A stretch of 35,648 bases of DNA, from contig JAAYUL010000055.1 of assembly GCA_012517675.1 (NCBI GenBank), positions 1 through 35,648 on the forward strand. Reading direction: 5' to 3'. Both the position numbers and the translations under genes were made by a program. The notes beneath the pieces are model-generated. The model did not search any database, was not told where the DNA came from, and saw only the letters and a list, made by a program, of their open reading frames with translations. Positions within the stretch are counted from its first letter, which is position 1; every line of letters starts with the position of its first letter. Below are positions 4,081 through 12,574 of this stretch, piece after piece. This DNA is from Clostridiales bacterium (GTDB lineage Bacteria; Bacillota; Clostridia; Oscillospirales; Acutalibacteraceae).

Positions 4081-5595
4081 ATGGCAAAAACAAAAAGAAC
4101 CGCACAACCGAAAATGCTCTCCGGCATCCATTTGAGCGTCCTCACGCTGACGATCATGAATGTCGCCGCCGTTGTCAGCCTCAGGGGCCTGCCGGCAGAG
4201 GCGAAATACGGGCTCGGATCGATTTTCTATTATCTGTTCGCCGCGCTGGTATTCCTGATCCCGGTATCGCTGATTTCAGCGGAGATGGCGGCGGCCTGGC
4301 CGCAGAAGGGCGGCGTCTACCGCTGGATCGGGGAAGCGTTCGGCGCGCGATGGGGCTTTCTCGCCATTTGGCTGCAGTGGATTCAAAATACGATCTGGTA
4401 CCCGACGGTCCTGACCTTTTCGGCGGTTTCCATCGCCTATATCGGCCTGGACCCGGCCGCCGACGCATCACTCGCCGGCAACCGGATCTATGTCGCGGCC
4501 GTCTGCCTGGTGATCTACTGGGGCGCGACGCTGATCAACCTGCGCGGGCTTTCGGCCAGCGCAAAAATCAGCAAGTACGGCGGCATGATCGGCACGATCA
4601 TCCCCGCGGCCCTTCTGATCCTGTTCGGCATCGTCTGGCTGCTGACGGGACAGAAAATCCAGCTCGACACCAATCCCGCCACGCTGCTGCCGGATCTGTC
4701 CAAACTCAGCAATCTGGTTCTGGCGTCGGGCATCTTCCTGTTCTTTGCCGGAATGGAAGTGTCCGCCGTTCATGTCAAGGAAATCGACAACCCCCAGAAA
4801 AATTACCCGAAGGCAATTTTTCTCGCTTCCCTGATTTCCGTGGCCATTTTTATTTTCGGAACCCTGGCGATCGGGTTCGTCCTTCCCGAAAAATCCATCA
4901 ACCTGACGCAGGGACTGCTGGTCACCTTTGACACGTATCTGAAAACATTTCACCTCGGTTTTCTGACCCCGGTGCTGGCGGTCATGCTGGTCGTCGGCGT
5001 TCTGGCGGGTGTTTCCACCTGGATCGGCGGCCCGAGCAAGGGGCTTCTCGCCGTGGGGCATCACGGTTTTCTGCCGCCGTTTTTGCAGAAGGTAAATAAA
5101 AACGGCATTCAGATCAACATTCTCCTCGTACAGGGCTGCATCGTTACCGTTCTGGTCTTTTTGTTTACCTTCATGCCCTCGGTGCAGGCCGTCTACCAGG
5201 TGCTCAGCCAGCTGACGGCGATCCTCTACCTGATCATGTATCTGATGCTGTTTGCCGCGGGCATCGCGCTGCGGGTCAGGGAGCCGGACCGGCCCCGGCC
5301 GTACAGGGTCCCCGGCGGAAAAGCCGGCATGTTTCTCATCGGCGGGGTCGGCATACTGGGCGCGCTGCTGGCCATCACGCTCAGCTTCCTTCCGCCGGAT
5401 CAGATCAAAATCGGCAGCGCGGCGTCGTGGTACGGGATTCTGATTGTCGGCGCGGTGGTTTTCCTGTCTATTCCGCTCATCATCTACGCTTTGCGTAAAC
5501 CGGGCTGGAAAAACGAAACCGCCAAAAACGCCATGGAACCCTTCACCTGGGAAAACACGGGAAAACAGCAGGCCGTGAAAAAGCAGGGACGCTGA
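4081..5595 (+). CDS. gadC: Glutamate/GABA antiporter (APC family amino acid permease)
   Basis: 504-aa, ~12 TM protein, VVSLRGLPAEAKYGLGSIFYYLFAALVFLIPVSLISAEMAAAWPQKGGVYRWIGEAFG; GGAGGT RBS; directly upstream of gadB. Confidence 0.87.
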   Translation: MAKTKRTAQPKMLSGIHLSVLTLTIMNVAAVVSLRGLPAEAKYGLGSIFYYLFAALVFLIPVSLISAEMAAAWPQKGGVYRWIGEAFGARWGFLAIWLQWIQNTIWYPTVLTFSAVSIAYIGLDPAADASLAGNRIYVAAVCLVIYWGATLINLRGLSASAKISKYGGMIGTIIPAALLILFGIVWLLTGQKIQLDTNPATLLPDLSKLSNLVLASGIFLFFAGMEVSAVHVKEIDNPQKNYPKAIFLASLISVAIFIFGTLAIGFVLPEKSINLTQGLLVTFDTYLKTFHLGFLTPVLAVMLVVGVLAGVSTWIGGPSKGLLAVGHHGFLPPFLQKVNKNGIQINILLVQGCIVTVLVFLFTFMPSVQAVYQVLSQLTAILYLIMYLMLFAAGIALRVREPDRPRPYRVPGGKAGMFLIGGVGILGALLAITLSFLPPDQIKIGSAASWYGILIVGAVVFLSIPLIIYALRKPGWKNETAKNAMEPFTWENTGKQQAVKKQGR

Positions 5596-5667
5596 AGCGG
5601 GCGGAAAAATGGCGGCCTCAGATTCCATGAAAAATAAGAATACCAAAGAATAATACGGAGGTTTATT

Positions 5668-7071
5668 ATGGCTTTATATCAACGCAAGGATATCAGGGAC
5701 AATCTGGAAGACAGCATTTTCGGAAGCAGGGATTCCGAAATCAGGATGCCGAAGTACCGTTTCCCGAAAACGGAGTCCGACCCCAAGGTGATTCTGGAGG
5801 TGCTCAAGGACGAGCTTTTCCTTGACGGCAACGCGCGGCAGAACCTCGCGACGTTCTGCCAGACGTTCGAGGAGCAGGAGGTCCATGAAATCATGGACCT
5901 GTCGATCAACAAGAACATGATCGACAAGGACGAATACCCGCAGACCGCCGCCATTGAGGAACGCTGCGTCCATATGATTGCCGACCTCTGGCACGCCCCC
6001 GAATCGAAAAACACGGTCGGAACCTCAACGGTGGGTTCCTCGGAGGCCTGCATGCTGGGCGGTCTCGCCATGTACTGGCGCTGGCGGGAAAAACGGGAAA
6101 AAGAGGGGAAGGACACGTCGCGCCCCAACCTCGTGACCGGGCCCGTTCAGGTCTGCTGGGAAAAGTTCTGCCGGTACTGGGACATCGAGCTTCGCGAAGT
6201 GCCGATGGAGCGCGAATCCCTCGCCATGACGCCAGGCACCATGCTGGAACATATTGACGAAAACACGATCGGCGTCGTCGCGACCTTCGGCCTGACCTTC
6301 ACCGGAAAATACGAGCCGGTCAAAGCGCTCTGCGACGCGCTGGACCAGCTCAGCGGGGAAAAGGGGATCGACCTGGACCTGCATGTCGACGCGGCTTCCG
6401 GCGGATTTCTCGCACCGTTCTGCGCGCCGGACATTCCCTGGGATTTTCAAAACCCAAGGGTCAAGTCGATCAGCGCGTCCGGCCATAAATTCGGGCTGGC
6501 CCCGCTCGGCTGCGGCTGGGTGCTCTGGAGGGACCGCGGCGATCTGCCCAAGCGCCTCGTTTTCCATGTGAACTACCTCGGCGGGGACATGGCGGTTTTC
6601 CAGCTGAATTTTTCCCGGCCCGCCGGCCAGGTTATTTCCCAGTACTACGAGTTCCTGCGGCTCGGGTACGAGGGGTACCGGAAAATCCATATGAACTGCT
6701 ACCGTACGGCGCAGTACCTCGCGGCCAGCATTGAGAAGACCGGCTTATTCGATATTCTGTACGACGCAAACCCGGAGAAAGGGATTCCGGCGCTCGCATG
6801 GGCCCTGAAAAAAGACGCGAAGGTGAATTTCAACCTGTATGATTTTGCCGACAAGCTGAGAAGCCGGGGCTGGCAGGTGCCCGCCTATTCCCTGCCCAAA
6901 GACGCGCAGGACGTCGTCGTCCAGCGCATTCTGGTGCGCCAGGGGTTCGGGCTGGATATGGCGGAGCTGTTCATGGAGGATTTCCGCCGCACGCTCACCT
7001 TCTTCGAGGGGCATGAGGTCGTGACGCCGCTGACACAGCGCGAGGCGGGCGGCTTCAACCACGCGGGGTGA
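5668..7071 (+). CDS. gadB: Glutamate decarboxylase (PLP-dependent)
   Basis: 467 aa; PLP-lysine motif SASGHKFGLAPLGCGWVLWRD; TVGSSEACMLGGLA; AASGGFLAPF. Confidence 0.95.
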   Translation: MALYQRKDIRDNLEDSIFGSRDSEIRMPKYRFPKTESDPKVILEVLKDELFLDGNARQNLATFCQTFEEQEVHEIMDLSINKNMIDKDEYPQTAAIEERCVHMIADLWHAPESKNTVGTSTVGSSEACMLGGLAMYWRWREKREKEGKDTSRPNLVTGPVQVCWEKFCRYWDIELREVPMERESLAMTPGTMLEHIDENTIGVVATFGLTFTGKYEPVKALCDALDQLSGEKGIDLDLHVDAASGGFLAPFCAPDIPWDFQNPRVKSISASGHKFGLAPLGCGWVLWRDRGDLPKRLVFHVNYLGGDMAVFQLNFSRPAGQVISQYYEFLRLGYEGYRKIHMNCYRTAQYLAASIEKTGLFDILYDANPEKGIPALAWALKKDAKVNFNLYDFADKLRSRGWQVPAYSLPKDAQDVVVQRILVRQGFGLDMAELFMEDFRRTLTFFEGHEVVTPLTQREAGGFNHAG

Positions 7072-7621: not shown

Positions 7622-8764
7622 TTACTCGCCGAACATGTTCTTGATTTTGTCGAAAAAGCTTCTGCGCTTCTGGTAGTTCTTGTCTTCCGTAACGCTGTCG
7701 AACTCCTTTAAAATCTGCTTCTGCCGTTCCGAAAGGTTCTTCGGCACCTCGATGGTCACGCGCACGAACTGGTCACCGCGGCCGCGGCCGTTCAGGCGCG
7801 GAATTCACTTGCCCTTCAGCTTGAACACATCGCCCGGCTGGGTGCCTTCGCGGACCGCGTAGCTCACGCGCCCGTCGATGGTGGGCACCACGACCTCCGC
7901 GCCGAGGGCGGCCTGTGTGAAGGTAATCGGCATTTCAAACCACACGTCGTTTCCGCGCCGCTCAAACAGCGGGTGCGGGCGCACGTTCACATAAACATGC
8001 AAATCGCCGGCGGGGCCGCCGTTGATGCCGGAATTTCCCTGTCCGCCCACGTTCAGGACCTGCTCGTTGTCCACACCCGCGGGAATGTTGATTTCAACCG
8101 TCTTTTTCCGGCGCACCCGTCCGGTGCCGCCGCACGTCCGGCAGGGGGTGTCGATCACCTTGCCCACGCCGCCGCAGCGGTCGCAGGTCCTGGCGGTCTG
8201 CACCACGCCGAACGGCGTGCGCTGAGAAACGCGCACCTGCCCGGTGCCGCCGCAGTTGGGGCAGGTTTTCGCGCTGGTCCCCTTTGCCGCGCCGGTGCCG
8301 CCGCAGTCGGGACAGGCTTCCACCCTGTCGTAGGAAACCGTCTTTTTGCAGCCCTTCGCCGCTTCCTCAAAGCTTATGTTGACCACCGTTTCGGTGTCGC
8401 CGCCGCGCCGCGGAGCGTTCGGGTTCACGGAGCGTGCGCCGCCGCCGAAGCCGCCGAAAAAGCTGTTGAATATGTCGCCCAGGTCAATGTCGCCCGTAAA
8501 CGGGCTTCCGCCGCCCGCGCCGCCGCCGAAATTCGGGTCCACGCCGGCGTGGCCGAACTGGTCGTACCGCGCTTTCTTGTCCTTGTCGGACAGCACCTCG
8601 TAGGCCTCGTTCAGCTCCTTGAATTTTTCCTCGGCTTTTTTATCGCCCGGGTTCAGGTCCGGGTGATATTTTTTCGCCAGCTTGCGGTATGCCTTTTTAA
8701 TCTCGTCTTCCGTGGCGTTTTTCGGCACACCCATAACTTCGTAATAATCTCTTTTATCTGCCAA
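7622..8764 (-). pseudogene. dnaJ: Chaperone DnaJ interrupted by an in-frame TGA (codon at 7805-7807)
   Basis: J domain with HPD, G/F region and four CxxCxGxG zinc repeats; reads ...[69 protein letters not shown] in one frame to TAA at 7622. Confidence 0.9.
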
Positions 8765-8971: not shown

Positions 8972-10816
<1,845 letters not shown>

Positions 10817-10901: not shown

Positions 10902-11477
10902 CTAGTTTGCTACCTGCACCATTGCGTGGCGCACAACCTTGTCTTCCATTTTATAGCCCTTCTGGAAAACCTGAGAAATGGTGTTTTCGCCGGCGCTTTC
11001 GTCCTCCACATGGGAAACGGCGTTGTGAAGGCCGGGGTCGAACGCTTCGCCGACTTCGCCCATCGCGGTGACGCCGAGCTTGTTCAGAGCGGCGTTCATC
11101 TGCGCCTGCACCATTTCAATCCCCTTGCGGATATCGTCCGCGCTGCAGTCCTTCTGCGCCAGCGCCCGCTCCAGGTTATCCGCAACGGGCAGGAACTCCG
11201 TCACCGCCGCCGAGGTCGCGTCCGCGTAAAGGGCCAGCTTTTCTCGCTCGGTGCGCTTGCGGTAGTTGTCGTACTCCGCCGCGGTGCGCAGCAGAAGATC
11301 CTTTTGCCTGTTCAGTTCCTCCTGCGTTTTTTTCAACTGCACTCTGCACTCCTCCAGCGGGTCGGGTCCAAGGTCTTCCTGCCCTGCCGCGGGCTCCGCG
11401 GCCGCCTCGGTCTGCCCGGGGTTTGCCCCCCCGACCTGCTCTTTTTCATTTATGGTTTCGTTTTCCTGATCACTCAA
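10902..11477 (-). CDS. grpE: Nucleotide exchange factor GrpE
   Basis: RTAAEYDNYRKRTEREK...FLPVADNLERAL...GEAFDPGLHNAVSHVED...VFQKGYKMEDKVVRHAMVQVAN. Confidence 0.96.
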   Translation of the reverse strand: MSDQENETINEKEQVGGANPGQTEAAAEPAAGQEDLGPDPLEECRVQLKKTQEELNRQKDLLLRTAAEYDNYRKRTEREKLALYADATSAAVTEFLPVADNLERALAQKDCSADDIRKGIEMVQAQMNAALNKLGVTAMGEVGEAFDPGLHNAVSHVEDESAGENTISQVFQKGYKMEDKVVRHAMVQVAN

Positions 11478-11493: not shown

Positions 11494-12534
11494 CTATTCC
11501 GTATCCATTAACTCCGTCAACATTCTTCCCACGGAGCCGGAAAGGTATTCGATATTGGAAATGATTTTGCCGTAGTTCATTCTGGTCGGGCCGATGATCG
11601 CGATGGCCCCCGCGTCTTTTCCGCCGACGGAATAGCGGGAAACCACCACGCTGGATTCGCTCAGCTCCGGCTGGTTCGTTTCCCTGCCGATCAGGACGCG
11701 GATGCTGTTCATCTGCTGCATCAGAAGCCGTGAAAGCTCCTGCGGGCGGGAAAGAAAATTCATGATCCGGCACACGTCGCTCTGCGAAAGCTCGCGGTAA
11801 TAAAGCAGGTTCATTTCTCCGTCCAGGCAAATTTCCGCCTGCATGGAGCTCTGCGCCACGTCGAGCACCGCCATGAGCGCCGAGCTCATGAGCATCGACA
11901 TTTCGCCCAGCGAAGCCGCCAGCGACTGGATGAACGCCGGCGTGACGGCCGAAACCGGCAGCCCGACCAGCTTTTCATTCAGCACGCGGAAGAACACGCG
12001 CAGGATTTCCGGCGTAATATCGTAATCGCAGTGGAATACCCGGCTTTTCATCGTCCCCGCGGAGGTCATCAGGATGACCATCGCGGTGCGGCGGCTGGTC
12101 TGCACAAACTGCACCGCGCGAATGTCCGCCGTGCTGCTGCTCGGTGTGGTGGAAACCGCCGCGAACCGGGTCATCCCGGCCAGCGCGCGGGCCACGCCGT
12201 CCATCAGCCGCTCCGGGTCGTAGGCGCTGGGCAGCAGCATGCTGTCGATATAGCGCTGTTCCTCGCCCGAAATAGGCGTCCGCTTCATCAGCGTGTCGAT
12301 ATAAAGGCGGTACCCCTTCTGGGAAGGGACCCTGCCCGCGGAGGTGTGCGGCTGTTCCAGAAGCCCAAGCTCGGAAAGCTCGCTCAGCTCGTTGCGCACG
12401 GTCGCCGACGAGACCGAAAAATCGAGGGTGTCGCAAATCGCCTTGGAACCCACCGGCTCCCCCGCGGCAACATAGAGGTCAATCACAGCCTTCAGAATTT
12501 TCTGCTTTCTTGTACTCAGCTGCAATCTCCTCAC
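11494..12534 (-). CDS. hrcA: Heat-inducible transcription repressor HrcA
   Basis: TRKQKILKAVIDLYVAAGEPVGSKAI...SSATVRNELSELSELGLLEQPHTSAGRVPSQKGYRLYID; first gene after CIRCE. Confidence 0.96.
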   Translation of the reverse strand: MRRLQLSTRKQKILKAVIDLYVAAGEPVGSKAICDTLDFSVSSATVRNELSELSELGLLEQPHTSAGRVPSQKGYRLYIDTLMKRTPISGEEQRYIDSMLLPSAYDPERLMDGVARALAGMTRFAAVSTTPSSSTADIRAVQFVQTSRRTAMVILMTSAGTMKSRVFHCDYDITPEILRVFFRVLNEKLVGLPVSAVTPAFIQSLAASLGEMSMLMSSALMAVLDVAQSSMQAEICLDGEMNLLYYRELSQSDVCRIMNFLSRPQELSRLLMQQMNSIRVLIGRETNQPELSESSVVVSRYSVGGKDAGAIAIIGPTRMNYGKIISNIEYLSGSVGRMLTELMDTE

Positions 12535-12547
12535 CTCTTTTGTAGTT

Positions 12548-12574
12548 TTAGCACTCTAAGTGTTCGAGTGCTAA
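12548..12574. promoter_or_regulatory. CIRCE element (HrcA operator)
   Basis: TTAGCACTC-N9-GAGTGCTAA, exact consensus. Confidence 0.97.

Follow-up and report, generated by a model that had tools for sequence, protein, structure and literature searches.

The window, i.e., the entire stretch of 35,648 nucleotides under analysis, harbors a heat-shock cluster on the minus strand. As named by sequence recognition, hrcA (11494..12534), grpE (10902..11477) and dnaK (8972..10810) are all intact, and dnaJ is the last gene of this hrcA-grpE-dnaK-dnaJ cluster. A perfect CIRCE operator (12548..12574, no strand assigned; 0 mismatches, 0 expected by chance) lies before hrcA and thus upstream of all four genes, so that regulation of the heat-shock cluster looks normal. 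A gadC-like transporter gene and a gadB-like decarboxylase gene (4081-7071) are convergent to the cluster and both end in TGA. The other recognized genes of the window are intact.

The dnaJ frame spans positions 7622-8764 of the minus strand, from a TTG start to a TAA end at 7622, and contains exactly one internal stop. This stop is a TGA at codon 320 (7805-7807, minus strand; context AAG TGA ATT CCG), where every aligned relative has Gly. It is located within the last sixth of the gene and 7.6 kb from a contig end. Read by table 11, dnaJ yields a product of 319 amino acids plus TGA (7805..8764, minus strand) with the J domain, G/F region, zinc center, CTD I and most of CTD II. The frame behind the stop (7622..7804, minus strand) stays intact for 60 codons plus TAA and encodes the last CTD II strand, the dimerization helix and the C-terminal helix. 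In the read-through frame, Pfam assigns the J domain (PF00226) to residues 6-68, the zinc center (PF00684) to residues 151-215 and DnaJ_C to residues 125-341. The translation carries YHPD, so that a J domain with its HPD is present, and four CXXCXGXG repeats, which make the zinc center complete. With the TGA taken as Gly, the frame would encode a complete class A DnaJ. The nearest solved full-length chain of a class A (type I) DnaJ/Hsp40, 6jzb, aligns with residues 5-378 of the read-through frame across all domains. Unlike 6jzb, the table 11 product stops at 319, without the end of CTD II and without the dimerization region; a complete CTD II and a C-terminal dimerization region occur only in the read-through frame.

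The sequence-only reading had described a TGA at 7805-7807 in an otherwise normal dnaJ, about 60 in-frame codons down to the TAA at 7622 and a truncated product of 319 amino acids. The single internal stop and the ORF list bear out the first and the last of these. The 60 codons align to the DnaJ C-termini of congeners, which agrees with the second and indicates that the intact frame is not due to chance. A check for a second dnaJ, proposed in the same reading, returned a single match to the zinc center; a second zinc-center dnaJ was not found in the draft genome of 152 contigs.

Codon 320 encodes Gly in 109 of the 110 aligned loci, the dnaJ of this genome being the sole exception, and the column of residue 320 is invariant in an alignment of 23 sequences. 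In the close orthologues from the same genus (n = 8), the codon is GGA (n = 5), GGC (n = 2) or GGT (n = 1). As five of the eight congeners use GGA, a single base change suffices to produce TGA. The change at a conserved Gly that the sequence-only reading proposed agrees with Gly at all 109 other loci. None of the matches listed for about 440 genomes (a number counted by hand), ranging from genus to class, has a TGA at codon 320. The only other internal dnaJ stop among these matches is a TAG at query position 342 in G035 (L022, G035:C32), which belongs to another genus of the same family. This gene likewise has one in-frame stop in its last 62 codons with an intact frame past the stop. It differs in codon and position and also stems from an unverified, fragmented draft (330 contigs). 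Recurrent dnaJ stops among relatives were considered and rejected, as the flags in G059, G367 and G018 correspond to the normal C-terminal end; for the flagged dnaJ genes of G077, G100, G072 and G112, no stop lies inside the realigned part. The dnaJ of one congener (G008; L137, G008:C12:169607-170665), situated at a contig end, is 59% identical versus 82-86% for other congeners; the contig may be foreign to the bin, or the gene may have been replaced.

A genetic code in which UGA specifies Gly is used in SR1/Gracilibacteria, and the presence of TGA at a conserved sense position is the sole support for a reassigned TGA, or one read as selenocysteine, in this organism. A UGA=Gly code is rejected because, in the genomic sequence that was sampled, TGA terminates 222 of the 530 ORFs exceeding 200 codons (140 and 82), RF2 is encoded in the genome, and no UCA-anticodon (TCA) tRNA was found among the 36 tRNAs read by ARAGORN at the tRNA search sites, a set that may be incomplete. 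The Gly tRNAs among these 36 are UCC, CCC and GCC only. A selenoprotein is rejected as well, since SelA was not found in the draft genome and tRNA-Sec remained below the cut-off, the matches in the draft being ordinary tRNAs. We consider reassignment or selenocysteine insertion hardly credible. The sequence-only reading had already deemed reassignment improbable because TGA is the stop of gadC, gadB and gpr, a judgment that stop usage in the sampled sequence upholds.

The state of the tail informs on the age of the stop. Compared with same-genus relatives, the post-stop tail of this dnaJ shows 14 to 19.5 non-synonymous differences, while that of the nearest intact congener (G004) shows 18 to 24.5 to the other congeners. 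No more than three residues of the tail occur in this dnaJ alone; two of them fall at positions that vary anyway, and the third is a Lys-to-Arg change. The comparison with congeners revealed neither a further lesion nor relaxed constraint past the TGA. An old pseudogene is ruled out, as the tail differences are no greater than in intact congeners and no lesion has been added. With a tail as constrained as in intact relatives, the stop would be very young, an artefact, or read through.

The last of these, a real stop with functional readthrough that yields a mixture of 319-amino-acid and full-length DnaJ, would be in line with an intact post-stop frame under constraint. However, the stop is common to no relative, and any inserted residue would replace an invariant Gly. 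No special structure was found in the RNA past the stop, its fold being similar to that of shuffled sequences (z = -0.67), and the incomplete set of 36 tRNAs provides no suppressor with the matching anticodon. The idea, taken from PMC13092985, that UGA is decoded by a tRNA-Trp whose anticodon stem has 4 bp was rejected, as the tRNA-Trp of this genome folds with a normal 5-bp stem. We therefore regard functional readthrough as very unlikely. More improbable still is a truly leaky stop by which one gene would supply a mostly monomeric 319-amino-acid DnaJ and a dimeric full-length form, in a ratio that depends on how often UGA is read through. Recoding of codon 320 is hence disfavored. Among the options listed in the sequence-only reading, a recent nonsense mutation and an error both stay, while readthrough is left without positive support, given a stop that is not conserved and the failure to find Sec machinery, a suppressor tRNA or an RNA structure.

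An artefact would mean that the consensus or the assembly is wrong at this base, or that the consensus of a mixed-strain bin took up a minor allele, with Gly and a full-length DnaJ in the true gene. The genome, a 2.28-Mb draft of 152 contigs in which 16S was not detected, is probably a metagenomic bin. A screen by codon score, covering about 834 kb of the draft, looked for frames that a single stop interrupts and that look coding before and after it. The initial screen gave 60 candidates, nearly all of them neighboring genes or shadow frames; after the criteria were tightened, inspection left two clear cases, the dnaJ TGA and a TAG in a uracil permease-like gene. The latter (9973-9975, minus strand; C152, L131) replaces a Trp (TGG) found in seven out of seven congeners; the nearest contig end is about 190 bases away. 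Applied to 400 kb of G005, a congener assembled in one contig, the screen left no lone mid-gene stops. The second lone stop, the clean congener, the fragmented draft without detectable 16S and the undecayed tail all argue for an artefact, as does the origin of the G035 stop from a fragmented draft. On the other hand, just two such stops occur in the sampled sequence. In this dnaJ, 3.3% of all single substitutions give rise to a stop. If both stops are errors, their occurrence within about 750 kb of coding sequence would thus imply an estimated substitution error rate near 8e-5, which is high, yet possible in a thinly covered bin. Moreover, the remaining recognized genes of the window are intact, the window ranks with the longer contigs seen, and neither of its ends is close to the site. 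Two real alleles fit the two lone stops as well. Published work on premature stops in bins from metagenomes offered nothing specific to substitutions. We give an artefact somewhat less than an even chance. Elsewhere in this genome (L129, around 14755 of G000:C145), a possible frameshift was noticed, where coding-like frames of 295 and 334 codons lie on the same strand and share 187 bases.

The account we favor, with about an even chance, is a nonsense allele of dnaJ that arose very recently through a single-base change and is private to the dominant strain of the assembly. Here we infer that the base is real as read, beyond the observed TGA, frame, residue conservation, single class A dnaJ and tail constraint. 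A stop private to this gene, one base away from the GGA of most congeners, with a tail as undecayed as a young change predicts, speaks in its favor; so do its position late in the gene, as in G035, and far from the contig end, a normal stop function of TGA with RF2 present, and the viability of near-identical, laboratory-selected truncations (PMC11842283, PMC10537758). Against it stand the fragmented draft without detected 16S and the fact that one or more further conserved genes of this draft carry a lone stop, compared with none in the one-contig congener. In addition, the strong conservation of Gly 320 and of the tail implies that truncation should be costly.

For a nonsense allele, the proposed course is that one substitution turned the Gly codon into TGA, at which RF2 would end translation. 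In an AlphaFold2 model of DnaJ built from 23 sequences (mean pLDDT 78.7), residue 320 sits between CTD II strands 313-316 and 332-339; strand 332-339 and helices 346-358 and 368-378, both helices of low confidence, come after the stop, as do the final 21 residues of the Pfam DnaJ_C match. The sequence-only reading was right that the J domain, the zinc center and most of the substrate-binding region would be kept, but the predicted loss is not confined to the dimerization tail, as the last CTD II strand and the end of DnaJ_C would go too. The 319-amino-acid DnaJ, retaining the J domain, G/F region, zinc center, CTD I and most of CTD II, would probably still stimulate DnaK, with poor dimerization and client holding in the absence of the last strand and both helices. 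The expected phenotype would be growth in mild conditions with a changed performance under stress.

Overall, a mutation of very recent date or an error of assembly explains the dnaJ stop best, rather than a new reading of the genetic code. If it is an artefact, it cautions against taking a lone stop in a conserved gene of a draft genome as recoding. If it is real, it represents a natural case of the C-terminal DnaJ truncation made by laboratory evolution under solvent or heat stress, in a genome where a second class A DnaJ was not found.

Known systems make a cell living on a 319-amino-acid DnaJ plausible. In the DnaJ homologue CbpA, loss of at least 20 C-terminal residues abolishes dimerization (PMC2955964), and Synechocystis grows at 34 °C, though not at 42 °C, with just the J and G/F domains (PMC7609799). 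C-terminal dnaJ mutations also arose in heat-evolved Legionella (PMC10537758). Since laboratory evolution has already produced C-terminal dnaJ truncations near residue 320, the allele, if real, would be viable and nothing out of the ordinary. The closest counterpart is dnaJ951_952insG of Pseudomonas taiwanensis GRC3, obtained by styrene selection, in which DnaJ is likewise disrupted from residue 320 onwards, ends 31 residues shorter and leaves the cell viable (PMC11842283). That allele differs in being a frameshift with 25 altered residues, confirmed by clone resequencing and selected in the laboratory (PMC11842283).
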